From positions 1 to 40,082 of the forward strand of contig JASBRJ010000113.1 in assembly GCA_030149525.1 (NCBI GenBank): 40,082 bases of DNA. The letters are read 5' to 3'. A program made the position numbers and the translations under genes. Source of the stretch: a bacterium. Its GTDB lineage: Bacteria; Vulcanimicrobiota; Xenobia; Xenobiales; JADMJV01. Each line of letters starts with the position of its first letter. Within the stretch, counting starts at the first letter, position 1. Positions 23,195 to 40,082 of this stretch are shown piece after piece. The notes beneath the pieces are model-generated. The model was not told the origin of the DNA, did not search any database, and saw only the letters and a program-made list of their open reading frames with translations.

Positions 23195-24397
23195 ATGACC
23201 ATTCCCTCACTCTCACCATCTCCTGTCTCTCGCCGTGGCAAGATGAGCCCACCCAAGGTGGGTCCCCGGGCGTTTCCCGTTGTGTCTCTTCGCGAGGGAG
23301 ACGAAGTCAAATTTTCCGCAGCCCTCGCTCGCTCGAAGCAGAAGACCGACAGGGTCGTGGGGAAAGCCCTTCTGACCGCCCTGGCTGGAGCTGCCTCGCT
23401 CACCTGTCTAGCGGGACCCGCCATGGCGCAGGTGCCTCCAGGTATTGAGCCTCTCGTCTTGGAGACCGTGAGTCAAAGCGATCTCTTTCGGTCGGAGCCG
23501 GACTTGCTGCGGTTGGATTTGCCGCTGGAGCCGATGGCTCGTGACACCACGAAGACAAAGTTTGGTGTTCAGTTAAACTCGGTCAATGATTTTATGCCAG
23601 ACGCTTGGACAGGCTGGCTGGGTGGCCCGGAGCACAAGATTCCCGACGGTACCGCTTTCGACGATGACGGTTTCACGGCGGAGGTGCAGTTGTTGGGGAA
23701 TCTTCAACAGGGGAATGAAGAGTGGGTGATGGGAGGACGTGTCGTTATGGTGACTCAGCCTGGCTCACGCTACCCCTTTGCTGAAGATTATCAAGGCTTG
23801 AGAGCCGATATCGGAGAGGTTGTTGTTCAACGGAATCTTCGAACCCGACTGTCTTCTGAAACCGTCCTGGATTACGGAGTCGGTGGAGGTCTTCAGTTTG
23901 TGGGGAATGTAGGGGGCGAGGACCTCCAAAGGTGGTGGCATGTGGCTGGGCCGGCGGGGGGTCGCGTGGGAGAAGACCTGCAGGGGAATCAAGTGCGGGA
24001 CGGGTTTCGTGCCATGCCGCTCATGACCGGTGGAGCCAAGTTGACCCACACAGTCTCTCCTGATCTGGACGTGATGTTCACCACTCAAGCCAGTCTACCG
24101 CTGGGTCGAGGGGTTGGGAATATTGGTTTCCGGGCCGGTCTAGGTAAGACTGTGGGTCCTGTTAATATCGAAGTCGGCGGCAAGCTCGACGCTACCTGGA
24201 TGGCTGCGCCTGAGCTGGACTTTCACGCCTCGAGCGGGTTGCGCGAAGGTTGGTACGGGCGTTTGGAGTTTGAGCCCGGGAAGTGGGGAGGCGTCTACAC
24301 CCAGCTTGAGACAGGCGGCCTTAGAAATGAACCGGTTTTGACCTTTGGGATTCGTCTTGGTGGTGGCACAGGTGCGCGCTTGAGTCCATTCTGGTAG
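23195..24397 (+). CDS. Outer-membrane beta-barrel candidate
   Basis: 400 residues from ATG 23195. A classic signal peptide (KALLTALAGAASLTCLAGPAMAQ) sits at residues 57-79, cleaved after Ala78, so the stretch before it is either a very long n-region or not translated. ATG codon 17 and GTG at 23357 (codon 55) are alternative starts; the GTG would give a normal signal peptide. The mature part is rich in amphipathic strands and glycines (YGVGGGLQFVGNVGG, NIGFRAGLGKTVGPVNIEVGG) and ends in a short aromatic terminal residue run (LSPFW), as outer-membrane barrels do. A weak likeness to LpxR-type lipid A deacylases (DDDGFT near a long strand pair) is not enough to name it. Divergent from rrf2. Confidence 0.6.
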   Translation: MTIPSLSPSPVSRRGKMSPPKVGPRAFPVVSLREGDEVKFSAALARSKQKTDRVVGKALLTALAGAASLTCLAGPAMAQVPPGIEPLVLETVSQSDLFRSEPDLLRLDLPLEPMARDTTKTKFGVQLNSVNDFMPDAWTGWLGGPEHKIPDGTAFDDDGFTAEVQLLGNLQQGNEEWVMGGRVVMVTQPGSRYPFAEDYQGLRADIGEVVVQRNLRTRLSSETVLDYGVGGGLQFVGNVGGEDLQRWWHVAGPAGGRVGEDLQGNQVRDGFRAMPLMTGGAKLTHTVSPDLDVMFTTQASLPLGRGVGNIGFRAGLGKTVGPVNIEVGGKLDATWMAAPELDFHASSGLREGWYGRLEFEPGKWGGVYTQLETGGLRNEPVLTFGIRLGGGTGARLSPFW

Positions 24398-24654: not shown

Positions 24655-26250
24655 GTGAAGTTAAAACACTGTTTCACCCAAGGTATTTTGGGTCTTTACG
24701 CCGTCTGTCTTGGGGCGTTTCTTCAGCTTGATGCCACGGCTCAACCGGTTCCACCGACCCGGTTTACTGTGAAAGCCTTCGACGTCGAGGGTATGAAAAC
24801 TCTCGATAGGGCTTTGGCACAGGACGTGTTGAAGGATTATCTGGATCGGCCACTGTCTTTTGCCGAACTGGAGAAGGCGGCCCAGCTGGTGGCCGAGCTT
24901 TATCGGGAGCACGATTACTTCACGGTAACGGCTTATCTCCCTAAGCAAGAACTCAACGACGGTCAAGTCACCATCAAGGTGGTTGAGTCCACACTCCAGG
25001 ACCTGAAGATTGAAGGGAACACTCGTTACTCCGATGAGTATTTGCAGTGGATGCTGGAGCCGGTCAAGGAAGACGTTCAAGACGGGCTCCCGCGCCGAAG
25101 TGTCCTACAGAGACAGTTGTTGCTCATCAACGACAACATGGATCTTGAAGCCCGATCCATTGTTCAGCCGGGCGACTCTTCCGACAAGGTCAATCTGCTC
25201 ATCCAGGCCGACGACGATCTGCCCACCCACCTGACTCTCGACTACAACAATCTGGGTGCGGTGTCTACCGGTCGACACAGGCTGGGCGCCACTTTCGAGT
25301 GGGGGAATTTCACCAATCGGGCCGACGTCCTCACCCTGAGGTATGTAGAGTCGGGATTGCTGAACGCCAATGTGGATGGGCTGGATCTCTTTACGCTGGC
25401 CTATCGCACTCCCCTCAATAATCAAGGGACCCACCTAAACTTTAGCTATGCGAACTCAGCTTTCCAGGTTGGTCGTGAGCTTCAGGTGCTCGATATCCGC
25501 GGTGATGCCGACGTTTTCAATCTCTCCGTCGACCATCCCATCATTCGCGGGACCGACGCCAACCTATACGTCAACGGCGGCTTTGTTTTCCAGGATATTG
25601 AAAACAGCATCCTCGGAACTCGACTCTCTCGAGACCGCTTGAGAGAGATCGTGGTAGGAGTTCGCGGCGACTGGACCTCCGGACGCGGCCGCAACTACGG
25701 TGGCTTGAGAGTCACCCACGACCTGGGCAACTTTCTGGGCGGCCTCGACTCCAACGATCCGTTCTCCAGTCGCCAGGCCGGCGGCGGATTCACCAAGCTG
25801 AACCTCGACCTGGCCCGAGTTCAGCGCTTCAACGAAGAGTTCTACGCTATCCTTCGAGGTCACCATCAGGCTGCTTTCAATTCTCTACCGTTTGCTGAGC
25901 AGTACGGCCTGGGCGGTATCAACACCGTGAGAGGTTACGACCAGTCGGTTTACCTCGGCGACTCAGGATACAACCTCAATGCTGAGCTTCGCTGGGCTCC
26001 CTTAGACGATCATCGGGACCTCCTGGAATTCGGCGTTTTTCTTGACCACGGTGGTGCCTCCCTACGTCGCCCGTTTCCCGGAGAGATCTCAAGTACCACT
26101 CTCACCGGAGCAGGAGTTGGAGTTCATCTCCGACTCCCTGAGGAAACCTACATCCGCGCCGAGGTTGGGTTCCCGCTCTCCGACAACGAGATCACCGACC
26201 AGAACGGTCGAAATCCCGTTCCCTATCTCATCTTCAGCAAAAAATTCTAA
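24655..26250 (+). CDS. TpsB transporter of two-partner secretion (ShlB/FhaC/HecB family)
   Basis: 531 residues from GTG at 24655, with GGAG 11 bases upstream. Signal peptide at 1-30 (ILGLYAVCLGAFLQLDATAQ). POTRA domain one at about 35-110 (FTVKAFDVEGMKTLD, YFTVTAYLPKQELNDGQVTI), POTRA two at about 111-190 (LQDLKIEGNTRYSDEYLQ), then a 16-strand-type barrel with the conserved loop-6 motif GLGGINTVRGYD (Arg426). It inserts in the outer membrane and exports the partner TpsA through its pore. The 27-base gap to the giant gene with a shared direction makes it the cognate transporter. Confidence 0.95.
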   Translation: MKLKHCFTQGILGLYAVCLGAFLQLDATAQPVPPTRFTVKAFDVEGMKTLDRALAQDVLKDYLDRPLSFAELEKAAQLVAELYREHDYFTVTAYLPKQELNDGQVTIKVVESTLQDLKIEGNTRYSDEYLQWMLEPVKEDVQDGLPRRSVLQRQLLLINDNMDLEARSIVQPGDSSDKVNLLIQADDDLPTHLTLDYNNLGAVSTGRHRLGATFEWGNFTNRADVLTLRYVESGLLNANVDGLDLFTLAYRTPLNNQGTHLNFSYANSAFQVGRELQVLDIRGDADVFNLSVDHPIIRGTDANLYVNGGFVFQDIENSILGTRLSRDRLREIVVGVRGDWTSGRGRNYGGLRVTHDLGNFLGGLDSNDPFSSRQAGGGFTKLNLDLARVQRFNEEFYAILRGHHQAAFNSLPFAEQYGLGGINTVRGYDQSVYLGDSGYNLNAELRWAPLDDHRDLLEFGVFLDHGGASLRRPFPGEISSTTLTGAGVGVHLRLPEETYIRAEVGFPLSDNEITDQNGRNPVPYLIFSKKF

Positions 26251-26277: not shown

Positions 26278-29200
26278 ATGAGAAACCTCAAACGTTACAG
26301 TCTGAGAAATAATCCCTTCAGAAAGGCTAAGAAGAAGCTCGCGGCAGCTCTTCTGGCTACGCTCACCACAGCGAGTCTGGCCAACCCTTCGGGGCCGGAT
26401 GTGCGGAGCGGACAGGTCAATATTCAGGGTCTGGGGACCAACTCGGTCAATATCGAGCAGCTCACCAATCAGGCTATCGTGAATTGGAACAGCTTCTCCA
26501 TCGGGGCCCAGGAAGCGGTGCGTTTCCTCCAGCCGAACCAGATGGCGGTTATTCTCAACCGGGTAACAGGCGGTGACCCTTCCCAGATTCTCGGTCAACT
26601 CCAGGCTAACGGTAACGTGTTCGTGGTTAATCCTGCTGGAATCACAGTGGGTGCGGGTGCCCGTGTGGACGTGGGTGGCCTGGTCCTTTCGACCCTAGGT
26701 ATCACCGATGAGAATTTTCTCTCCGGGAACTACACCTTCGAACAAGACCCCAATCAAGCTCTGGCCTCCATCGTCAATCAAGGCACTATCAAGATTTCCG
26801 ACGGCGGCTATGCCATTCTCACGGCTCCTCTGATTTCCAACGAAGGCCTCATCGTTGCCAATCTGGGTAAAGTTGTGCTGGCTGGTGGAGAAAAAACCAC
26901 CCTCAACTTCGATGGTCGGAATCTGATCAACTACGAGCTTGCCGGAATCACCGGTGACGCCGGAACGGTCGTCATGCCCCGCGAGTCGGTCAGTGCCGTT
27001 CTCACTGATATGCTCGGTATTCGAGACCGGGCGAAAGGTCTTATTCAGAGAGAGGACGGTTCGTTCGCTCTGGAAGGCGCGAGTGGCACCGTCTATCAGG
27101 CTGGAACCATCCGGGCCGACGGAGCGGAAGGACAAGAGGCCGGCGTCATAGCTATCGATTCGGCTCGGTTGACCGTTCTGGGTGAAGACTCTGTGACAGC
27201 CGCCGACGGGGTGGGGGCCGATTCGTCCGGCGGCGTCGTCTACGCTCTGTCTAACCGTGGTCGAAACGGAGATACCGGTGGACTGATCGTTGGACAGGAG
27301 GGTTCTCTTCTCTCTTCGGTAGGTGGGGAAACCGGAGACGGTGGTTTTATCGAATTCTCCGGGGAGAAGTTTGACTTCGCCTCCTCCGTTCAAACGGCGT
27401 CGTTTCTCTTGGACCCTCGAGATATTTTTATCATTGATGGAGCCGGGAACACGATTGACGGCAATAACGACCAGACCATCGGGGATGCCGTTCTTGAAGC
27501 CATCACTGCTCAGGTTATCACTCTGCAAGCCGACCGAGACATCATTTTCAATATCAACGGTCAAGCCGGGGGTGGGGACAACGACCTCAATCTTTTCACT
27601 AATAACAACAACTCCAACAAGCCGATTACCTCGAACGTCGAGTCCAACAACCACCTGGTTCTCATCGCCGGTGGTGATGTCAATTTCGGAGACGATCTGG
27701 TCATCACCCAAGCCATTGATATTCTGGCCGGTCTCGATGCGGTGGCTCAAGGTCGATCCGGTAACGTGACCGGCGGTGTTATTAGAGCCAACGATATCGA
27801 TATCGGCATTGACGCACGAGGGGGAGAGAACCCCGCTTTCGACGGCGCACCCGCCGGATCCGGGCTCGCTCGCACCAGCACTAGCTCATCGAACTATAGA
27901 AATAACATTGTTGCCGTCGGAGGAAATCTTTCCAATAGATCGATTCGAAGGGTCACCGGAAACGTTAATATCAGCTTTGAGCGGCTGACAGCGCCCTCGG
28001 TGGGCTCTGCGACCTCCACGCTTCTTCTTCCCGAGTCTCAAACGGTGGACCAGGATCTCTCCGTGTTGGCGGTAGGGGATATCACCCTCACCGATGTTAC
28101 GGCCGGCCTCCCTGCCACTATCGACGCTCGAGACCAGATTCGCGTCGAGCGGTATAACAACGAAGTCAACAGCGGCGGTTCCGGTGGCCAGACAGGTATC
28201 AACTCCCAGAGCGGAGACATTACCATCACCGCCACCGACCGATTCTTCGGGGTGGGCAAAGGGGATAGCAACGCCGACGCCAGCGGAGACAGCGGCACGA
28301 ATAGCGTTCAGGCCGACTCGGCCGGGGCGACCATCAAAATCACGGCCGGCGCCATTCAGGACCGCTCGGGCACTCGACAAGACGTCGCTGCCCGGGACGG
28401 ACTTATTGAGCTGATCGCTACCAATAGCGACATCGGTGGAGTCGGGGTGGACGGTACGACTGGTGCCGTTTCTTTCTCAACCGCGCTCCCTTTCGACACC
28501 GTATCCAAGAGCTTGATCGCCGAGACCCGGGCGGTCGGGGCCACCATCGGCCTCGACATCGAAGGTGGGTCCGGTAGCCTCGATCTCCTTGATGTGACCA
28601 CTAACGACGGAGCCGTGGGGCTTCGTGACAATGAGCAGTCGCCCATCGCCATTCTCACATTCAACCCGCTCACAACCGAGGTTGCTACTACCGGTGCCCC
28701 AATAAGCGTGTCTAAGGCTCGTTTCGCTAACCGTGGAAATATCGCCATTGGTAGTGTTGAGGTGCGGAATATCCTCATTCTGGAAGCCATCGCCGAGGGC
28801 GGCGCAGCGGGCAATATCACCGACCTCGACGGGGCCGGTAACGATATCACTTTAAACAACACCAACTCCATCATCGGGCTCATCGCAGACGGCGGGATCG
28901 GTACTTTGGCGGATCCCCTCGAGATGATCTCCACCGACAGCGGCAACATGAGCTTTGAGGCCGGAGACGGCGGTCTCTTCACTACTGTGACCGGTAACAT
29001 CGACATCGATCAGGCCATCCTAACCACCAACGTGGTAACGCCCACTCGAACCACTCGCTCCATCACCGGCGGTACCAGCAGTGGAAATGTTCGGATCGAC
29101 GCCACCGGAAACATCGTGGTTCGGGAAGATGTCACTGTAAACAACGGAGCGGTCACCACTGAGAAACTTGATCTGGTGGCAGGAGGGAATATCGACTTTT

Positions 29201-32200
29201 CCACCTCTACTGCGGGTAACGGCCAGGCTCAGGTGTCGGTAGGCGACTCAAGCGGCGGTACACTGGTGCTGGATGCCGACGGTAACGTGACCCAAGATCA
29301 GGGAGGGCTTCTCACCTCCAGAGTTATCGGTCTCGACGTGGAAGGCAATGTCGGCCTCATCGGGGGTAACGATGATGCTCGTGCGCTTGACGTCGATACA
29401 GACTTTATCTCCTTTGAGGTCGGTGACGGCAACGCCGGGAACGGGCTGGGGAGCGCCAACATTCTCAATGCCAACGGGAACCTCGACAATGCAGGGGCTG
29501 TGTTTGCTCAAGACGGCAACGCCATAGGCTCGGCGAACTTCACCGAGGGTTCGTTGGAGCTTGAAACTCCGGGGAATCTGGCCATAACATCCAACACACT
29601 GACAATAGGCACGAGCGGAGACCTGGTTTCTCGCACCGGAACGGTAAGCATTCTCGCGAGCGCGGTGAACATTTCCGCCGGTGACAACCTGGTTATCACA
29701 GCAAGCTCATCTATAAGAAGTGTAGGCGGTGCTTCCTTGATTGCGGACGCCATCGGTCTGAATTCCGGTGGCAATATCGAAGAAGTCGGCGGAGACGGGC
29801 ATCTCGATATTCAGGCCGACCAACTGTCCTACCAAGCCGGAGGCGGTTTTGCTCGCATCCAGGATAACAACGGCAACCTGGAGCTGGTGGACAGCGTGAC
29901 GGCAGTCGACGAGTCCGCCGGAATAGCCGGTGGTGCAGCCAGTGGTGCCGTTTCGAGAAACGGGGCGTCGATCAACGCTTCGTCCGGCTCTCTCACCGTC
30001 TCTACTAACGTTACGAACTCGACTGTCAGCGGAATAGATCTCCTGGCCGCCGACGACATAGCTCTCAACGGCAATGTGACGAATACGGGGCGTAATGTGG
30101 TGGTTCGCGCAGGATCTGATGCCGGCGACGACATCACTCAGACCAACGGGAACACCATCACGGCAGCCGGACTTGGCCTCCAGGCCGGAGGAAATATTTC
30201 CGATACCGCCGGACCATCTGCTGCCGGTGAACTTGATTTTAATGTGACCAGCCTCGCCTTCGACGCGGGTAATGATTTCGTTGTTCAAGACACGGCCGGT
30301 GGTGTGACCATCGTGAACTCCGTGACGGGGTTCAACGAAACGGTCACCACAAACTCGGGCGGCGATAGTGGTCGCAATATTCGAGTAGAGACGGCTGCCG
30401 GTGGACAAATCACTGTGGATGCTACCAACGGCCTCGCCCATTCCGGCGGGACGGCGGGCGGAATCGACCTGGTCTCCAACGGTAACATCGCTCTGACAAA
30501 CGGAGCTCTTTCAGGCTCTGATCTTGTTCTGTCGGCCGCCAATAACATCACCCAGACAGGCGGTACTATCAACGTTGCCAATTTGGGTATTCAAGCGACA
30601 GGTGACGTGGGAGCAACCGGAGACCTCTTCGAGTTCAATACCACCGACCTGACCGTGAACGTCACCAACGATGCGTTTCTGCAAGACACCGCAGGCGGCG
30701 TCAACCTCACTGGCTCTGAAACCGGGGCCTATGAGACCGTTAGCGGTAACAGCGCCCGCAACCTTCGGGTAGAAACGGCCGGTGCCGGCTCGGACCTCTC
30801 GGTTTCCGGCAATATTACAACGGCCCAGGACCTCGACCTGGTAGCAGTCGATCAGGTCAACCTTAACAGCGGTACCATCACGGGTCGAAACGCGGTTATC
30901 TCTGCCGGTGGTACTATCACTCAAGCCGTCGGTCAGAACTTTGCCAACCTCGCGGTGACCTCCCTGGGCTTACGTTCGGGAGCCGATATCGGTAGTTCCG
31001 GCGATCATTTCGTCTTCGACACCACCAATCTTGTGGTCAGCACTCCGGGTAACGACGCCTTCCTTCAAGACGCCGACGACCTCACTATCGTCAACAGCGT
31101 CACCGGTGTGAATGAAACCGTGACCGGAAACTCCGGCGACGATCTTCGCTTTGTCTCAGGAACCGAGCTTACCGTGGATTCCTCGGTGGCAAGCTTTACC
31201 GCCAACGATATCGATCTGGTGGCGCGTAATAACGTGGTCCTCAACGGGGATGTCAACGCGGTGAACAACATCGTGATCAGAGCCGACTCGGATAACAACG
31301 GCGTGGGCGGCATCTCTCAGACTCAGGGTGAAACCCTCACGGCCACTCAAATCGGTCTTTCCGCAGGCGACGGCGGCATCGGTACCGCCGGTGCCGATAC
31401 AAACGCCATCGATATCAACGCCACCGATCTTGCCCTTGAAACCTCGGGCAACGCCAATGTACTGGACTCTGCCGGTGGTGTTCGACTGGTGGAGACGGTG
31501 ACCGCCGTTACCGAGAGCGTAGGTACCTTGGGCGGCACCACAACCATAGGCGGCTCCTTGGAATTGGAAGCTGATGGTGGAGACACCGCGGCGCTCACTA
31601 TCAACGACGACGTCACCGTGGGACAGGGTTCGGATCTTGTTGCCGACGACGACGTGGTTATCAATCAGAACGTTACGGTAACCAACAATCTGGTAGTGAA
31701 AGCCGACGACGACAACAATAACAACGGTGTCATCACAGCAACCGGCAATCTCAGTTCAACGGGTCTTGGCTTGTCGGCGGCCGGTAATATCGACAACGGT
31801 GCCGGTGGAGCCCTCCAGGTGGACGTGGCTACCTTCGGCGTGGACGGCGGCGGCAGCGTTCATGTGCAAGACCTCAACGGAACCTTTACCGTGGCTTCGG
31901 TCTCCGGTGTAGATGAAACCGTGGCCGGGGCGACCGCTGGAACGGACCTCAAACTAGAGGCCAGCGGCACCGACCTCATTCTCAACGCCGATGCTTCGGC
32001 CGGTGGTAACATCGATCTCCTGGCCGACCAGAACGTGGTCCTCAACGCCGACGTGACTTCTACCGGGCCGACCTCCACCGTGGTTGTGGTGGCCGACGCC
32101 GACGGCGTAGGTGGAGTCGGAACCATCACGCAAACAGACGGAGAAGTTATCACCGGAAACACGGTTGGACTCTCCGCGCAAGGAAATATCGGAACCGGTG

Positions 32201-35200
32201 GTACCGGTGATATCGACATCAACGCCAACAATCTGGCTGTGGAAACAGCGGCCGGAAGTGCCAACGTCGACGATCTTAGCGGAACTCTCAATATCGTCGA
32301 CACAGCAGTCGGTCAGTGCTTCACGGTGACCGGAAATACCGCTGCCGGAGATTATCGGGTTCGCACCACCGGACTTCTCACCGTAGACGATGCGGTGGCG
32401 GCCAACGATATCAGCCTCCTTTCAAGCGGCGGCGGCATCACTGTCAATCAGAATGTGACCGCCACAACCGACGCGGTTCTCTCCGCCTCAGGGGATATCA
32501 CCGGTAACGGGGTCGTTCAAGCGACCAATGTGGGACTCGATGGAAACAACATCGGCGCCTCCGGCAACAGTTTTGACATCAACGCTAGCAACCTCGCTAT
32601 CGATTCTGAGAGCAACGCCTATGTGGAAGACGCCGATGGTGTCACTCTGATCAACAGTGTGCGTGCGACGAGTGAGAATGACGAGGTCGTAGGCAACGAC
32701 GCCACCGGCGATTATCGGGTCCTCGCCAACGGAGCTCTCAGCGTCAACGATGTTGTCACCGGTCAAGATATCAGCCTCATCGCCAACGGCGGAGCCCTTA
32801 CCCTTAACAGCAATGTGGGTGATGGGGGGACTGTGAATACCGTTCTCTCGACCACCGCCGACCTGGTCCAAACCAGTGGTCTGGTGGCGGGTACGAACGT
32901 AGGTCTGGACGCCACCAATATCGGTGCTGTGGCCAATAATTTCGACACCAACGCCACCAACCTGGCCATCGACTCCGAGGGCAACGCTTACGTGGAAGAC
33001 GTGAGCGGTGTCAACCTGATCGCAAGCGTCACGGCCACGGCTGCCAACGACAATGTGACGGGCAACGATGCGACTGGTGACTACCGAGTTGAAGCCAACG
33101 GTGTCCTGAACGTTAACGACGCCGTGACCGGTGGAGACGTCAGTCTGACGGCAACGAGCATTGCCCTGAACAATTCCGTGGGGGATACTGGAACTGTTGA
33201 TGCAGTCCTTGAGGCGACTGGCAGTATTACTCAAACCGCCGGCACCGTGCGGGCGACCAACGTCGGTCTTGAAGCGTTCAACATCGGAACCTCGACCGAT
33301 AGCCTCGACACCACGGCAACAAATCTCGCCGTCGATTCCGGCAATCGAGCCTTCGTAGAGGATGCGGACAGCGTAACTCTTGTCAACAGTGTGACGGCAA
33401 CGGCTGCCATGCATACCGTGACCGGAAACCAGGGTACGGACGACTATCGCGTGCAGGCCAACGGGGATCTCACAGTGAGCGATAACGTGACTGGCGACGA
33501 CATCAGCCTGGTGGCAAACGGCGGGAGCGTTATCCTGAACAACACGGTACAGGGCTCCAACAACGTAGTCTTGTCGGCGAGCGGAAACCTGGTTCAGAAC
33601 GGTGGAACAGTTCAATCCACTAACGTTGGGCTTGATGCTACCAATATCGGAACGGCTGCCAACAGCTTCGATACCACCGCCACCAATCTGGCCATCGACT
33701 CCGAAGGCAACGCTTATGTGGAAGACTTGAACGATGTCACCCTGGTGGGTAGCGTGACATCCACTGCGGCCAACGACACGGTCACGGGTAACGATGCTAT
33801 CGGTGACTACCGTGTCGAGGCCAACGGTCTTCTCATTGTGGACGATGCTGTGACCGGAGCTAATATCAGCCTCGTCTCCGACGGTGGAGGTATCAGGCTG
33901 CAAAACTCTGTGGGTAGTGGAGGCACCACAAATGCCGTTCTTTCCGCTTCAGCAACCATAGAGCAGATCAGCGGTACGGTTCAGGCCACCAATGTTGGTC
34001 TCGACGGTAACAACATCGGGACTTCCGGAAACAGCGTGGACACCAACGCCACCAATCTTACCATCGATGCTGAAGGTAACGCCTACGTGCAGGATGCCGA
34101 CGGGGTGACTCTGGTTAACAGCGTGACAGCCACTGCTGCCAACGACTCTGTGACCGGCAACGACGCCACCGGAGATTATCGAGTGGTAGCCGGTGGCAAC
34201 CTCACCGTGAGCGACGACGTGACCGGTGGGGACATCAATCTCACCACCACGGCTGGAAACATTACTCTCAACAACAGCGTGGGTGACGCCGGAACTGTAG
34301 ATACGGTGCTTTCCGCCACGGGCAATCTGGTGCAAAACGGCGGAAGCGTTCAAGCTGCCAACCTGGGATTGGACGCCACCGATATCGGAAGCGCCGCCAA
34401 CAGCTTCGACACCAACGTCACCAATCTCACCATCGACTCCGAAGGCAACGCCTACGTTGAGGACACCGATGGTGTGAATCTCGTCAATCTGGTTGTGGCC
34501 ACAAGCGGTACCGGCCCGGTGGTAGGCAATGATGCCACCGGTGACTACCGAGTGGAAGCCAGCGGAGATCTCACCGTGAGTGACGACGTGACCGGTGGAG
34601 ACATCACGTTGAAAGCCGACGGCGGCAGTATCACGCTCAACAACTCGGTGGGGGATGCCGGAACCGTGGATGCGGTTCTTACGGCCACCGGTAACCTGGT
34701 CCAGAATGGTGGTACGCTCACCGCTACTAACCTCGGTCTTGATGCAGCCAACATCGGGTCTGCTGCGACACCGGTGAGCATCGACGCCGACAACCTGGCT
34801 GTGAACGCTGACACCGATGCTTTCGTGAGCGACTCCGATGACGTGACCCTGGTGGACAGCGTCACCGCAACGGCTGCCAACGACAGCGTCACCGGCAATA
34901 CTGCTGGAAACGACCTCAGGGTTGTGGCGGTAGGCGATCTCACCATCAATGCGGGAACCAACGGAGTGTCCGCCGACGACATCGATCTTGTCTCCACCGG
35001 CGCAAACGTGAATCTCACCGATGGAACCGTGGCTGCTGTCGACGCGGTGGTGATCAAGGCCAACGGCAACATTACCCAAGCAACCGGAGAGACTCTCACC
35101 GGTACGAATATCGGTCTTGAGGCGGGTAGTAACATCGGCACTCCCAACGCGGGAACTGATAATAACGCTATCGCCTTCAACGCGACCAACCTGGCCTTGA

Positions 35201-38200
35201 CCGCTGGAGGTTCTGCCAACGCGCGAGATACTGCCGGTGGTGTCACCCTGATCAACAGCGTGACCGCTGTCCAGGAGACGGTGACCGGAACCAGCACAGG
35301 CACATCGCTTGAATTAGAAGCCAACGGCACCAACGCCAACCTCACTATCTCCGATGATGTGGTTGTGGGAACCGGTGCCGACCTGGTGGCCGATGGAAGC
35401 GTCGTCTTCAACAACAGTGTGACGGCGACCAATAATATCGTCATCTCCGCCGATAACGACCTCGACGGTAACGGAGCCATCACTCAGACGGCAGGTACCA
35501 TCACCGCCGACGGACTCGGTCTGCGCGCCTCCGGCAATATCGATAACGGGGCCGGCGGAGCCATTTCCACCAGCATCAACACCCTAGCGGTTGACTCGGA
35601 TCCCACCGGATCCGGTACCGGAGGAGACATCCATCTGCAAGACAGCACCGGCAACTTCGTGCTCAACGCCGTGACCGGTGTGGATGAAACGGTGGGCGTG
35701 ATCCGCGCCGGGGGAGACCTCAAGCTTGAGGCTCTGGCAGGCGATCTGATTCTGAATTTGGATGCTGCTGCAGGCGACGATATTGAGTTGAACTCCATCA
35801 CCAACGTGACTCTCAACGGTAGTGTGACCGCCTCTTCTGCGGGCAGCATCGTGACCGTTGTGGCCGACAGCGACAACAACGGCACCGGTGGCATCACTCA
35901 AACCAACGGCGAGGTGATCACCGGGGAAACCGTGGGTCTGTCTGCTGGTCAGAACATAGGAACTGCTGCCAACTCCATCGACATCAACGCCACTAACCTG
36001 GCTATGGAAACGGCGGGCGGCTCGGCCTACGTCGTCGACTCTACGGCCGGTCTGAACATTATTGACCAGGTGGTCGGTCTTTGTACCACCGTAACGGGCA
36101 ACACCGCCTCCGGTGACTACAGAGTAGAGACTCCCGGCCTTCTGACTGTGAATGACGCAGTGAGCGGCGATGATGTGGCTCTCGTTTCAACTGCCGGCGG
36201 CATCACCGTCAATCAGAACGTGACCGCAACCACCGACGCGGTTCTGTCCGCCAGTGGAAACATTACCGGTGACGGCGTGGTTTCTGCAACCAATCTGGGA
36301 CTTGATGCCGCCGATATCGGAACGTCTGCCAACAGCTTCGATACCAACGCAACCAACCTCGCTATCGATTCGGAAGCAAACGCCTACGTGCAAGATGCCG
36401 GCGGCGTGACCCTGGTCAACAGTGTGACGGCTACGGCTGCCAACGACAACGTGACGGGCAACGACGCCACCGGAGATTATCGAGTTCGAACCACAGGCGA
36501 TCTCAACGTTGACGATGCAGTCACCGGTGGTGACATCAGCCTGAACGCCGACGGTGGAAACCTCGTACTCAACGGCTCGGTAGGTGACGGCGGTACTGTT
36601 GATACGGTTCTCGCCACTACAGGGAATCTTGTTCAGAACAGCGGCACCGTTGTCTCGACCAATCTGGGATTAGACGCAGCCAACATCGGCTCGGTTGCTA
36701 CATCGTTGAGCATTGATGCCGACAACCTGGCGGTGAACGCCGATACCGATGCCTTCGTCAGTGACTCCGATGATGTGACTCTGGTCAACAGCGTGACAGC
36801 CACGGCTGCCAACGACACCGTCACCGGCAACACCGCGGGCAACGACTTTCGAGTGCTGGCCGCCGGTGCTATTAACGTAGACGACGTTGTGACCGGTAGT
36901 GAGATCAGCCTGATTTCCACCGGTGGAAGTATCACCCTCAATCAGAGCGTTGGTGGTGCGGGGACAGATACGATTCTTTCCGCGGCCGGTGATCTCGTTC
37001 AGAACGCGGGCACAGTGAGCGGTACCAATCTCGGTTTGGACGCCACCAATATCGGGACATCCGGCAATAGTTTCGATACCGACGTTACCAATCTGACCAT
37101 CGACTCCGAAGGCAACGCTTACGTGGAGGATGCCGATGGAGTCACTCTTATCAATAGTGTCACCACAACCGGTGCGGGCGATACGGTGACCGGCAACGAT
37201 GCTACCGGTGACTTCCGTGTGGTGTCTAACGGTGCTCTCCAGGTTCGCGACGACGTCACAGGTGGCGACATCAGCTTAATAGCTAACGGTGGAAACCTGA
37301 CCCTCTTCAATTCTGTGGGTGACGCAGGAACTGTGGACGCCGTCCTCTCCTCTACGAACGATCTCACCCGGTCCGGCGGAAGCGTCGTCCAGGCGACCAA
37401 TCTTGGGCTCAGAGCCGCCAATATCGGCTCTCGCGCCACACCCTTGAATATTGATGCCGACAATCTTGCGGTGAACGCCGACAACAACGCCTTCGTAGAT
37501 GATTCCGACGACGTCACTTTGGTGAACAGCGTGACCGCAACAGCGACCGGTGACTCCGTCACCGGAAACAGCGCTGTCGATTACCGTTTGGAAGCCTCCG
37601 GAAACATCACGGTGGACGATGCTGTGACAGCCACCGACGTAGTTCTCATCACTGATAACGGCGGTATTGCTGTCAATCAGTCGATCACCGCCACCTCGGA
37701 TGCTGTCTTAAACGCGTCGGGCGATATCACCGGTAACGGAACGGTGTCTGCGAGCAATCTTGGATTGGACGCTGCTAACATCGGTACCGCTGCCAACTCG
37801 CTGAATATCGACACAAATAACCTGGCCGTGAACGCCGATACCAACGCCTTTGTAGACGATTCCGACGATGTCACTCTTGTGAATAGTGTGTCTGCTGTCG
37901 GCGGCGTAGACAGCGTCACAGGGAATTCCGCAGGCAACGACTTGCGGGTGGAAGCCTCCGGTAACATCACCGTCGATGATGCTGTAAATGCAACGGACGT
38001 GGCGCTCGTCACCGATAACGGCGGTATCGCCGTCAATCAGTCGGTCACCGCCACCTCGGATGCGGTTCTCAATGCCAGTGGTGACATCACCGGTAACGGC
38101 ACCGTCACCGCCCCTAACCTGGGCCTTGATGCTGCCAACATCGGTACGGCTGCGAACTCACTGAACATCGACGCGGACAACCTGGCCGTGAACGCCGACA

Positions 38201-40082
38201 CCAACGCCTTCGTAGATGACACAGACGATGTGACCCTGGTGAACAGCGTGACCGCCACGGCTGCCAATGACACCGTCACCGGCAACACCGCAGGCAACGA
38301 CTTCCGAGTGGAAGCATCCGGTAACATCACCGTCAATGATGCGGTGAACGCAACGGACGTGGCTCTTGTCACCGGCAACGGTGGCATCGCTGTGAACCAG
38401 TCGGTCACCGCTACCTCCGACGCCGTCCTGAACGCCAGTGGCGACATCACCGGTAACGGCACCGTCACCGCTCCCAACCTGGGGCTCGACGCGGCTAACA
38501 TCGGCACGGTGGTGAACCCGCTCAACATCGATGCGGATAACCTGGCTGTGAACGCCGACACCGACGCTTTCGTGAGCGACTCCGATGAGGTGACCCTGGT
38601 GGACAGCGTGACGGCAACGGCTGCCAACGACAGCGTCACCGGCAACACCGCCGGCGACGATCTCAGAGTGGTGGCGGCAGGCGATCTCACCGTCAATGCG
38701 GGAACCAACGGAGTTTCCGCCGACGACATCGATCTTGTCTCCACCGGCGGTAACGTGAACCTCACCGACGGCTCGGTAGCGGCAGTCGACGCTGTGGTTA
38801 TTAAGGCCAACGGCAACATCACTCAGACCACCGGCGAGACTCTCACCGGTATCAACATCGGTCTTGAGGCCGGTGGAAACATTGGCACTCCCAACGCTGC
38901 CGACGACAATAATGCGGTGGCGCTGAACGCCACCAATATCGCTCTCACAAGTGGTGGTTCGGCCAATGTTCGGGACACCGCCGGCGGTGTAACTTTGGTG
39001 GACAGCGTGACGGCCGTTCAGGAGACAGTGACGGGAACAAGCACAACGACTTCCCTTGAGTTGGAAGCCAACGGCACCAACGCCAATCTCACCATCTCCG
39101 ACGACGTGGTTGTGGGAACGAGTGCCGACCTGGTGGCCGATGGGGACGTTATTCTTAACAACAGCGTAACGGCGACCAACAACATCGTCATCTCCGCCGA
39201 CAACGACCTCGACGGCAGTGGAGCCATCACCCAGGCGGCCGGTACCATTACTGCCGACGGATTAGGGCTGCAAGCCTCCGGCAACATCGACAACGGAGCA
39301 GGGGGAGCCATCTCCGCCAACATCAACACCCTGGCAGTGGATTCCGACCGGACCGGTTCAGGTACCGGTGGTGACATCCATCTGCAAGACACAACCGGTG
39401 ACTTCGTTCTCGACGCTGTGACCGCTGTGGATGAGTCCGTGGGCGTGATTCGGGCCGGTGGTGACCTCAAACTTGAGGCTCTAGCAGGCGACCTCATCCT
39501 GAATCTGGACGCTTCAGCCGGTGACGACATCGAACTGAATTCCATCACCAACGTGACCCTCAACGGTAGCGTGACCGCCTCTTCCGCAGGTAGCATCGTG
39601 ACCGTTGTGGCCGACAGCGACAACAACGGCACCGGTGGCATCACTCAAACCAACGGCGAGGTGATCACCGGGGAAACCGTGGGCCTGTCTGCTGGTCAGG
39701 AAATCGGAACTGCGGCCAACTCCATCGACATCAACGCCACCAACCTGGCCATGGAGACGGCGGGTGGCTCGGCCTACGTCATCGATTCAACGGCCGGTCT
39801 GAACATCATCGACCAGGTGGTGGGACTCTGTACCACTGTTACGGGTAACACCGCTTCCGGCGACTATCGAGTGGAGACCCCCGGCCTTCTGACGGTAAAT
39901 GATGCGGTGAGCGGCGATGATGTGGCTCTCGTCTCAACGGCCGGCGGCATCACCGTCAATCAGAACGTGACCGCAACCACCGATGCCGTGCTCAACGCCG
40001 CTGGTGATATCACCGGCAACGGAACGGTTTCTGCCACCAACCTGGGACTCGATGCCGCTAACATCGGCACCGCCGCTAACTC
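26278..40082 (+). CDS. Giant TpsA exoprotein (filamentous-haemagglutinin type), open to the window end
   Basis: The frame from ATG 26278 (AGGAG site 8 bases before) stays open for at least 4601 codons and leaves the window; the C-terminus is not seen. A basic head and hydrophobic segment (KKKLAAALLATLTTASLA, about 18-35) make an extended signal peptide. The TPS domain runs about 40-300 with the family motif NPAGI (118-122). After a link with LLDPRDIFII, the rest is strands and turns rich in Asp, Asn, Thr, Gly and Val, expected to form a very long beta helix. From about residue 866 modules of 119-151 residues repeat, marked by GLxAxNIG-like anchors. From about residue 1563 ten modules form a repeating superunit. 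Only three cysteines were seen (residues 2014, 3269, 4518). It is a surface or released adhesin/filament candidate; the partner is unknown. Confidence 0.93.
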   Translation, partial: MRNLKRYSLRNNPFRKAKKKLAAALLATLTTASLANPSGPDVRSGQVNIQGLGTNSVNIEQLTNQAIVNWNSFSIGAQEAVRFLQPNQMAVILNRVTGGDPSQILGQLQANGNVFVVNPAGITVGAGARVDVGGLVLSTLGITDENFLSGNYTFEQDPNQALASIVNQGTIKISDGGYAILTAPLISNEGLIVANLGKVVLAGGEKTTLNFDGRNLINYELAGITGDAGTVVMPRESVSAVLTDMLGIRDRAKGLIQREDGSFALEGASGTVYQAGTIRADGAEGQEAGVIAIDSARLTVLGEDSVTAADGVGADSSGGVVYALSNRGRNGDTGGLIVGQEGSLLSSVGGETGDGGFIEFSGEKFDFASSVQTASFLLDPRDIFIIDGAGNTIDGNNDQTIGDAVLEAITAQVITLQADRDIIFNINGQAGGGDNDLNLFTNNNNSNKPITSNVESNNHLVLIAGGDVNFGDDLVITQAIDILAGLDAVAQGRSGNVTGGVIRANDIDIGIDARGGENPAFDGAPAGSGLARTSTSSSNYRNNIVAVGGNLSNRSIRRVTGNVNISFERLTAPSVGSATSTLLLPESQTVDQDLSVLAVGDITLTDVTAGLPATIDARDQIRVERYNNEVNSGGSGGQTGINSQSGDITITATDRFFGVGKGDSNADASGDSGTNSVQADSAGATIKITAGAIQDRSGTRQDVAARDGLIELIATNSDIGGVGVDGTTGAVSFSTALPFDTVSKSLIAETRAVGATIGLDIEGGSGSLDLLDVTTNDGAVGLRDNEQSPIAILTFNPLTTEVATTGAPISVSKARFANRGNIAIGSVEVRNILILEAIAEGGAAGNITDLDGAGNDITLNNTNSIIGLIADGGIGTLADPLEMISTDSGNMSFEAGDGGLFTTVTGNIDIDQAILTTNVVTPTRTTRSITGGTSSGNVRIDATGNIVVREDVTVNNGAVTTEKLDLVAGGNIDFSTSTAGNGQAQVSVGDSSGGTLVLDADGNVTQDQGGLLTSRVIGLDVEGNVGLIGGNDDARALDVDTDFISFEVGDGNAGNGLGSANILNANGNLDNAGAVFAQDGNAIGSANFTEGSLELETPGNLAITSNTLTIGTSGDLVSRTGTVSILASAVNISAGDNLVITASSSIRSVGGASLIADAIGLNSGGNIEEVGGDGHLDIQADQLSYQAGGGFARIQDNNGNLELVDSVTAVDESAGIAGGAASGAVSRNGASINASSGSLTVSTNVTNSTVSGIDLLAADDIALNGNVTNTGRNVVVRAGSDAGDDITQTNGNTITAAGLGLQAGGNISDTAGPSAAGELDFNVTSLAFDAGNDFVVQDTAGGVTIVNSVTGFNETVTTNSGGDSGRNIRVETAAGGQITVDATNGLAHSGGTAGGIDLVSNGNIALTNGALSGSDLVLSAANNITQTGGTINVANLGIQATGDVGATGDLFEFNTTDLTVNVTNDAFLQDTAGGVNLTGSETGAYETVSGNSARNLRVETAGAGSDLSVSGNITTAQDLDLVAVDQVNLNSGTITGRNAVISAGGTITQAVGQNFANLAVTSLGLRSGADIGSSGDHFVFDTTNLVVSTPGNDAFLQDADDLTIVNSVTGVNETVTGNSGDDLRFVSGTELTVDSSVASFTANDIDLVARNNVVLNGDVNAVNNIVIRADSDNNGVGGISQTQGETLTATQIGLSAGDGGIGTAGADTNAIDINATDLALETSGNANVLDSAGGVRLVETVTAVTESVGTLGGTTTIGGSLELEADGGDTAALTINDDVTVGQGSDLVADDDVVINQNVTVTNNLVVKADDDNNNNGVITATGNLSSTGLGLSAAGNIDNGAGGALQVDVATFGVDGGGSVHVQDLNGTFTVASVSGVDETVAGATAGTDLKLEASGTDLILNADASAGGNIDLLADQNVVLNADVTSTGPTSTVVVVADADGVGGVGTITQTDGEVITGNTVGLSAQGNIGTGGTGDIDINANNLAVETAAGSANVDDLSGTLNIVDTAVGQCFTVTGNTAAGDYRVRTTGLLTVDDAVAANDISLLSSGGGITVNQNVTATTDAVLSASGDITGNGVVQATNVGLDGNNIGASGNSFDINASNLAIDSESNAYVEDADGVTLINSVRATSENDEVVGNDATGDYRVLANGALSVNDVVTGQDISLIANGGALTLNSNVGDGGTVNTVLSTTADLVQTSGLVAGTNVGLDATNIGAVANNFDTNATNLAIDSEGNAYVEDVSGVNLIASVTATAANDNVTGNDATGDYRVEANGVLNVNDAVTGGDVSLTATSIALNNSVGDTGTVDAVLEATGSITQTAGTVRATNVGLEAFNIGTSTDSLDTTATNLAVDSGNRAFVEDADSVTLVNSVTATAAMHTVTGNQGTDDYRVQANGDLTVSDNVTGDDISLVANGGSVILNNTVQGSNNVVLSASGNLVQNGGTVQSTNVGLDATNIGTAANSFDTTATNLAIDSEGNAYVEDLNDVTLVGSVTSTAANDTVTGNDAIGDYRVEANGLLIVDDAVTGANISLVSDGGGIRLQNSVGSGGTTNAVLSASATIEQISGTVQATNVGLDGNNIGTSGNSVDTNATNLTIDAEGNAYVQDADGVTLVNSVTATAANDSVTGNDATGDYRVVAGGNLTVSDDVTGGDINLTTTAGNITLNNSVGDAGTVDTVLSATGNLVQNGGSVQAANLGLDATDIGSAANSFDTNVTNLTIDSEGNAYVEDTDGVNLVNLVVATSGTGPVVGNDATGDYRVEASGDLTVSDDVTGGDITLKADGGSITLNNSVGDAGTVDAVLTATGNLVQNGGTLTATNLGLDAANIGSAATPVSIDADNLAVNADTDAFVSDSDDVTLVDSVTATAANDSVTGNTAGNDLRVVAVGDLTINAGTNGVSADDIDLVSTGANVNLTDGTVAAVDAVVIKANGNITQATGETLTGTNIGLEAGSNIGTPNAGTDNNAIAFNATNLALTAGGSANARDTAGGVTLINSVTAVQETVTGTSTGTSLELEANGTNANLTISDDVVVGTGADLVADGSVVFNNSVTATNNIVISADNDLDGNGAITQTAGTITADGLGLRASGNIDNGAGGAISTSINTLAVDSDPTGSGTGGDIHLQDSTGNFVLNAVTGVDETVGVIRAGGDLKLEALAGDLILNLDAAAGDDIELNSITNVTLNGSVTASSAGSIVTVVADSDNNGTGGITQTNGEVITGETVGLSAGQNIGTAANSIDINATNLAMETAGGSAYVVDSTAGLNIIDQVVGLCTTVTGNTASGDYRVETPGLLTVNDAVSGDDVALVSTAGGITVNQNVTATTDAVLSASGNITGDGVVSATNLGLDAADIGTSANSFDTNATNLAIDSEANAYVQDAGGVTLVNSVTATAANDNVTGNDATGDYRVRTTGDLNVDDAVTGGDISLNADGGNLVLNGSVGDGGTVDTVLATTGNLVQNSGTVVSTNLGLDAANIGSVATSLSIDADNLAVNADTDAFVSDSDDVTLVNSVTATAANDTVTGNTAGNDFRVLAAGAINVDDVVTGSEISLISTGGSITLNQSVGGAGTDTILSAAGDLVQNAGTVSGTNLGLDATNIGTSGNSFDTDVTNLTIDSEGNAYVEDADGVTLINSVTTTGAGDTVTGNDATGDFRVVSNGALQVRDDVTGGDISLIANGGNLTLFNSVGDAGTVDAVLSSTNDLTRSGGSVVQATNLGLRAANIGSRATPLNIDADNLAVNADNNAFVDDSDDVTLVNSVTATATGDSVTGNSAVDYRLEASGNITVDDAVTATDVVLITDNGGIAVNQSITATSDAVLNASGDITGNGTVSASNLGLDAANIGTAANSLNIDTNNLAVNADTNAFVDDSDDVTLVNSVSAVGGVDSVTGNSAGNDLRVEASGNITVDDAVNATDVALVTDNGGIAVNQSVTATSDAVLNASGDITGNGTVTAPNLGLDAANIGTAANSLNIDADNLAVNADTNAFVDDTDDVTLVNSVTATAANDTVTGNTAGNDFRVEASGNITVNDAVNATDVALVTGNGGIAVNQSVTATSDAVLNASGDITGNGTVTAPNLGLDAANIGTVVNPLNIDADNLAVNADTDAFVSDSDEVTLVDSVTATAANDSVTGNTAGDDLRVVAAGDLTVNAGTNGVSADDIDLVSTGGNVNLTDGSVAAVDAVVIKANGNITQTTGETLTGINIGLEAGGNIGTPNAADDNNAVALNATNIALTSGGSANVRDTAGGVTLVDSVTAVQETVTGTSTTTSLELEANGTNANLTISDDVVVGTSADLVADGDVILNNSVTATNNIVISADNDLDGSGAITQAAGTITADGLGLQASGNIDNGAGGAISANINTLAVDSDRTGSGTGGDIHLQDTTGDFVLDAVTAVDESVGVIRAGGDLKLEALAGDLILNLDASAGDDIELNSITNVTLNGSVTASSAGSIVTVVADSDNNGTGGITQTNGEVITGETVGLSAGQEIGTAANSIDINATNLAMETAGGSAYVIDSTAGLNIIDQVVGLCTTVTGNTASGDYRVETPGLLTVNDAVSGDDVALVSTAGGITVNQNVTATTDAVLNAAGDITGNGTVSATNLGLDAANIGTAAN
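30964..34731 (+). repeat. Superrepeat copy A (ten modules)
   Basis: 3768 bases. Module lengths from the anchor: 387, 414, 399, 366, 369, 363, 363, 369, 369, 369. It is the most diverged copy, clearly alignable with copy B at protein level, and carries a cysteine codon at 32317 (VGQCFTVTGN). Confidence 0.75.
34732..38478 (+). repeat. Superrepeat copy B (ten modules)
   Basis: 3747 bases. Module lengths: 378, 405, 417, 363, 369, 366, 372, 357, 360, 360. The cysteine codon is at 36082 (VGLCTTVTGN). The first four modules are near-identical to copy C. Confidence 0.88.
38479..40082 (+). repeat. Superrepeat copy C (partial, cut by the window end)
   Basis: Starts at the same phase as copy B and repeats its first module lengths exactly (378, 405, 417, 363). 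The offset from copy B is a constant 3747 bases, with 92 consecutive identical bases at 39592-39683 against 35845-35936. The cysteine codon is at 39829. Confidence 0.88.

Follow-up and report, generated by a model that had tools for sequence, protein, structure and literature searches.

A giant TpsA gene continued on a second contig

The window analyzed here, from a bacterium of the Gram-negative type, comprises contig C142 in its entirety (40,082 bases), part of an assembly of 8.27 Mb in 398 contigs. It carries a pair of genes on the forward strand. The first (24655 to 26250) encodes a TpsB-type outer-membrane transporter with a ShlB/FhaC domain (Pfam PF03865, 2e-29) and a POTRA_2 domain (PF08479, 1e-16), an assignment that was confirmed in a whole-genome search. 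It ends 27 bases upstream of the second gene (26278 to 40082), an open reading frame that starts at 26278 and runs without a stop codon to the end of the window, which is also the end of the contig. The signal-type N terminus and TPS secretion domain of this gene (26278 to 27600) match PF05860 above the cut-off (E value of 3.2e-34) and TIGR01901 (6e-26), and by sequence also the structures of EtpA, HMW1, and HxuA. The TPS domain was recovered by a piecewise scan of the reading frame, whereas a Pfam scan at full length returned no domain. From its sequence, with a TPS secretion domain and a cognate TpsB encoded directly upstream, the gene is a tpsA, and its product is predicted to be secreted by the neighboring TpsB.

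The final 102 bases of the contig (39981 to 40082, forward strand), which hold the end of the module designated C3 below and the start of the beta module C4, are repeated exactly at the start of contig C46, and this sequence occurs nowhere else in the genome. The reading frame remains open across the overlap and ends at a stop at position 4126 of C46, giving a joined protein of 5942 amino acids (586 kDa) that is strongly acidic (764 Asp and Glu versus 149 Lys and Arg). Its C terminus (VNLVESVIDEMLEEENNEDKIYNENGW...) is similar to that of a 2810-residue paralog encoded elsewhere in this genome, on contig C41 (VGLVEAVLEEALDNYDLIYNETGW...). The exact overlap, the in-frame continuation, and a C terminus like that of a paralog with a 67% identical N-terminal TPS domain make the join well supported at the level of the gene. 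This support does not extend to the exact module count at the join, since a contig end inside a repeat marks an ambiguity of the assembly; modules could have been lost there, and the assignment of two short modules to the third copy depends on the 102-base overlap within the repeat. Small contigs may also have been dropped from the assembly, given that the smallest in the sample checked measures 3.7 kb. A search of the assembly for a further close copy of modules C1 and C2 found none. Contig C333 has exactly the length of the repeat offset described below (3747 bases), but it carries a different TpsA N terminus, and the agreement was taken as a coincidence.

The part of the reading frame on C46 has no Pfam or NCBIfam domain. 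A Pfam match of modules A4 to A9 to the SBBP beta-propeller family (2.5e-11) was not accepted, because its best stretch is 17 residues long and lies in repetitive sequence. CDI toxins (CdiA) are characterized by a VENN or (Q/E)LYN-type motif followed by a variable C-terminal toxin domain with an immunity gene. Judged by its modules, which reach to about 115 residues from the stop, by its C terminus, which is like that of the C41 paralog, and by the lack of family domains in the C46 part, the protein does not resemble this class. Predicted exported proteins flank the tpsBA pair on both sides, upstream of tpsB (23195 to 24397) and 10 bases past the tpsA stop (C46, 4137 to 4862). Neither has a confident Pfam or NCBIfam family, and both are possible operon partners of tpsBA. 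Further downstream (C46, 6037 to 12064) lie genes for a subtilase-family protease and for a protein of 1351 residues that has Big_2 Ig-like domains.

The genome contains eight TpsA loci (on C142, C41, C30, C5, C31, C333, C297, and C225) versus six detected TpsB genes, two of which (on C347 and C368) are on contigs without a detected TpsA. No TpsB was detected on the contigs of the C41, C5, C31, and C333 loci, and the whole-genome search detected none near the C41 paralog. The start of contig C30 (L055, 1 to 14000) encodes a second giant TpsA of more than 4085 residues that is likewise truncated within its repeats by the end of the contig, and no exact overlap of this end with another contig was found.

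Module layout and repeat periodicity

A first-pass annotation of the window had described the gene as a giant TpsA with a higher-order repeat above the size of the single module, made of ten-module units that start at 30964, 34732, and 38479. The assignment and the existence of such a repeat both hold, and the anchors and lengths of the modules and the starts of the copies were recovered as given; these starts lie one codon past the module starts at residues 1562, 2818, and 4067. Copies A and B each comprise one X module, three special modules (S1, S2, and S3), and six short modules. Their module lengths are 130, 137, 133, 122, 123, 121, 121, 123, 123, and 123 residues in copy A and 126, 135, 139, 121, 123, 122, 124, 119, 120, and 120 residues in copy B. 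Up to the end of the window, copy C has modules of 126, 135, 139, and 121 residues, which are exactly the first four lengths of copy B, as had been noted.

All modules are encoded on the forward strand. Four diverged leading modules, p1 to p4 (29347 to 30960), with about 24 to 50% identity to other modules, stand outside the superrepeat. Module p5 (30961 to 31350), where the first-pass annotation began copy A, occupies the X slot of this copy and is 49% identical to either of the X modules A10 and B10, which are 89% identical to each other. It is followed by the special triplet A1-A2-A3 (31351 to 32526; S1, S2, and S3 of 137, 133, and 122 amino acids), which shares 58, 58, and 71% amino acid identity with B1 to B3 at a dS of 1.5 to 2.0 and contains Cys 2014 in A3. 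The six short modules A4 to A9 (32527 to 34728) are all of type alpha (clade support of 98/90). Modules A10, B1, B2, and B3 (34729 to 36291, 521 codons) have the order X-S1-S2-S3 and form one half of the strongest repeat. The six short modules that come next, B4 to B9 (36292 to 38475), are in turn alpha, intermediate (neither type), alpha, beta, beta, and beta. The other half of the strong repeat, B10, C1, C2, and C3 (38476 to 40038), again has the order X-S1-S2-S3 and matches the first without gaps at an offset of 3747 bases. Past the join to C46, copy C is found to have six modules; its two short modules (C4 and C5) are of type beta and are followed by C6, which is X-like, and by a fourth unit, D, that has diverged. 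An offset of 761 amino acids pairs B8-B9-B10-C1 with C4-C5-C6-D1.

Self-comparison of the DNA displays the periodicity of about 3.7 kb that had been proposed. A diagonal is present at an offset of 3747 bases, with 67 to 95% identity in 100-base bins from 34701 to the end of the window and mostly 20 to 45% elsewhere, and a weaker one (about 58 to 76%) is seen at an offset of 3765 bases, spanning 32201 to 33100. At the corresponding protein offset of 1249 residues, an 80-residue window reaches 99% identity, and the residue-shuffled protein never gave an 80-residue window at 35%. The two strong cassettes, A10-B1-B2-B3 and B10-C1-C2-C3, are 84% identical in DNA and 91% identical in amino acids over their 521 ungapped codons, with a dS of 0.71, a dN of 0.056, and a dN/dS of 0.08. 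Among single modules, the closest copies are 88% identical in DNA with a dS of about 0.5, and dN/dS among the closest copies is 0.03 to 0.10.

A probable four-module cassette with a variable spacer

The special modules of the successive copies correspond by position, and the X modules do so between the later copies (A10 and B10). The short modules do not: the mean positional identity of A4-A9 to B4-B9 is 55.7%, versus 56.4% over all 720 permutations of their order (P = 0.69). Of the ten-module unit proposed earlier, the special and later X positions are thus retained and the short-module positions are not. The number of short modules that follow successive cassettes is 6, 6, and 2 in this gene and about 1 in the C41 paralog. 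This paralog, half as long and with repeats that lack cysteine, shares the order S1-S2-S3-short in two full copies and one partial copy. Given short modules of A and B that do not match by position, a shorter copy C, and the module order of the paralog, the recurring unit is probably (we estimate about 70%) a four-module cassette, X-S1-S2-S3, of about 521 residues (1.56 kb), followed by a spacer with a variable number of short modules.

A tree of 52 modules from both paralogs places S1 and S2 in one group each that spans the two proteins. B pairs with C at each of the three special positions (99 to 100% bootstrap), and A pairs with the C41 paralog in S2 and S3 (98%). When the triplets were joined, A again grouped with the paralog (94/94), although a clade of A, B, and C was not formally rejected (AU P = 0.068) and was likewise not rejected in tests of single modules (P values of 0.14 to 0.29). 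With triplet A placed next to the paralog instead of B, the divergence of copies A and B may predate the split of the two paralogs; the trees favor this without proving it.

The same data bear on the alternative that the gene grew by tandem duplication of entire ten-module blocks, after which copy C lost four short modules and conversion scrambled the short modules of A and B. Several features fit such a history: A and B both have exactly ten modules, the longest exact repeats of the gene lie 3747 bases apart, and C4-C5 align to B8-B9 at the offset of 761 residues, as expected if the equivalents of B4 to B7 had been deleted from C. The lack of positional correspondence between the short modules of A and those of B, the grouping of triplet A with the paralog instead of B, and the cassette order of C41 with its single or so short module argue against it, and we regard it as unlikely. 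A far smaller probability is given to an assembly artefact, with B and C as one locus assembled twice or C46 misjoined. The contig does break within a repeat, and short contigs, below the 3.7-kb minimum of the sample checked, may have been dropped; B and C nevertheless differ at 16% of bases, and their dS of 0.71 and dN/dS of 0.08 lie beyond assembly error and exclude the assembly duplication that the first-pass annotation had named as the finding that would undo its repeat. A misjoin has against it the 102 exact bases that are unique in the genome, the in-frame continuation, and the C41-like C terminus. With the cassette as the recurring unit, the matching blocks A10-B1-B2-B3 and B10-C1-C2-C3 support at least one block duplication, so that the growth by block duplication suggested earlier is supported for the cassette and not, with spacers of 6, 6, and 2, for blocks of ten modules.

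The longest exact repeat in the gene is a 92-base tract on the forward strand at 35845 to 35936 that recurs 3747 bases downstream at 39592 to 39683. Identity along the B/C cassette is patchy, with a run of 30 identical codons that none of 5000 shuffles reached. This tract suggests recombination between the copies, possibly gene conversion, and local constraint could contribute. The next longest exact repeats measure 44 bp at the same offset of 3747, 42 bases at an offset of 2283, and 35 bases at an offset of 360. As the two longest lie exactly 3747 bases apart, a length step of 1249 residues, close to the steps of about 1250 residues between strains proposed in the first-pass annotation, is possible and would be mechanistically the easiest if the length changes; steps of 761 and 120 residues, which have shorter exact tracts of their own, are open as well.

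The copies are old (dS of 0.71), and a recent amplification of copy number was rejected, as no copies exceed 88% DNA identity outside the short tracts. CdrA, a TpsA of Pseudomonas aeruginosa, is listed among surface proteins of variable length whose repeat number varies between strains (PMC8201768, PMC9704523), and the mosaic identity, the 92-base tract suggestive of recombination between copies, and a contig end that may mark a branch of the assembly could all be accommodated by a fast length-switching gene of the Periscope type, with copy number differing among strains. The most extreme variation in repeat number occurs where repeats are most alike (PMC8201768), however, and the very high DNA identity of tandem repeats that characterizes Periscope genes is not seen here (88% and a dS of about 0.5 for the closest modules), which makes this reading improbable, somewhat more so than duplication of ten-module blocks. 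The gene would rather have grown by duplication of cassettes and by separate duplication of single short modules of about 120 residues, and purifying selection would then have acted on the duplicates as they diverged, while copies would at times have recombined with one another.

Predicted structure, function, and relatives

The AlphaFold2 model of the cassette A10-B1-B2-B3, built on a shallow five-row alignment, consists almost entirely of strands (mean pLDDT of 93.7, pTM of 0.89). A fold search of the PDB returned weak matches only, the best being HxuA (E value of 0.5), with FHA and EtpA also listed. The model of B1 to B9, from a two-row alignment, has a pLDDT of 63 and is too poor to use. 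The hydrophobic periodicity of 20 to 21 residues is weak (0.096 at a lag of 20), and lags of 7 and 32 score higher. On the basis of the protein family, the secondary-structure pattern, and the shallow five-row alignment, each short module would form about six turns of a right-handed parallel beta-helix with about 20 residues per turn, and the whole protein a single continuous rod. A beta-helix rises 4.8 Å per turn, which would give the repeat region a length of about 0.1 micrometre. By analogy with known TpsA proteins, which is the only ground for this proposal, the rod is most likely a surface adhesin or a cell-cell or matrix filament.

There are three cysteines in all 5942 residues (2014, 3269, and 4518), one in each S3 module, with spacings of 1255 and 1249 residues; the C terminus has none. 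The one cysteine in each cassette hints that cassettes are functional sites, a reading open to experiment. It is conceivable, if very doubtful, that the rod acts as a periodic ruler in which each cassette places one functional site, including the cysteines, and arrays of short modules space these sites, so that the cassettes of neighboring filaments align and can be cross-linked, while recombination at the repeats 3747 bases apart changes the length in steps of whole cassettes. Periodic cysteines were also observed in the giant TpsA on C30, at about one per module of 140 to 150 residues. A giant TpsA of another genome (G002, contig C44; L060) has pairs of cysteines about 15 to 19 residues apart in each module, which would suit stacked turns.

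Rods with imperfect repeats are already known in TpsA proteins. EtpA of enterotoxigenic E. coli (PDB 8cpk and 8vba), which matches the TPS domain with an E value of 2e-40, has four repeats of 228 residues, each of nine turns, which have been described as some of the longest in TpsA proteins (PMC10284417). Both proteins have a long repetitive C-terminal part. The rod of EtpA is built of imperfect repeats, whereas the present protein, about 3.8 times the length of the EtpA chain of 1564 residues listed in the PDB, has a repeat of repeats, with modules of about 120 residues in a four-module cassette that recurs at about 1250 residues. CdrA is a secreted TpsA with a long repetitive stalk, as predicted here; the copies in the present gene differ from it in their DNA identity, which does not exceed 88% except in short tracts, and the C terminus in lacking cysteine. 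HxuA and HMW1 match in the TPS secretion domain by sequence, FHA and HxuA were among the weak fold-search matches, and a cassette-and-spacer architecture was not found for HxuA, FHA, or HMW1 in the literature examined. Within one open-access library, to which the search was limited, no nested cassette-and-spacer order of this size and no higher-order TPS repeats were found. The gene combines two levels of repeat, a four-module cassette that is conserved and an array of filler modules that varies, and the paralog keeps the same order. It offers a concrete case for the growth of very long, predicted beta-helical filaments by cassettes and single modules and not by one fixed large unit.

A search of 149 genomes from the phylum at an E value of 1e-25, with the genus represented by one genome only, found the cassette in no genome but this one. 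In the named genome collection, the single TPS match was distant and came from a Deltaproteobacteria MAG. The C termini of several TpsA proteins of this genome (L054, L057, L058, and the joined protein) have an acidic stretch followed by a basic end in RR (for example, KKFRR, RKRR, and TNRR), which is possibly a shared C-terminal signal.
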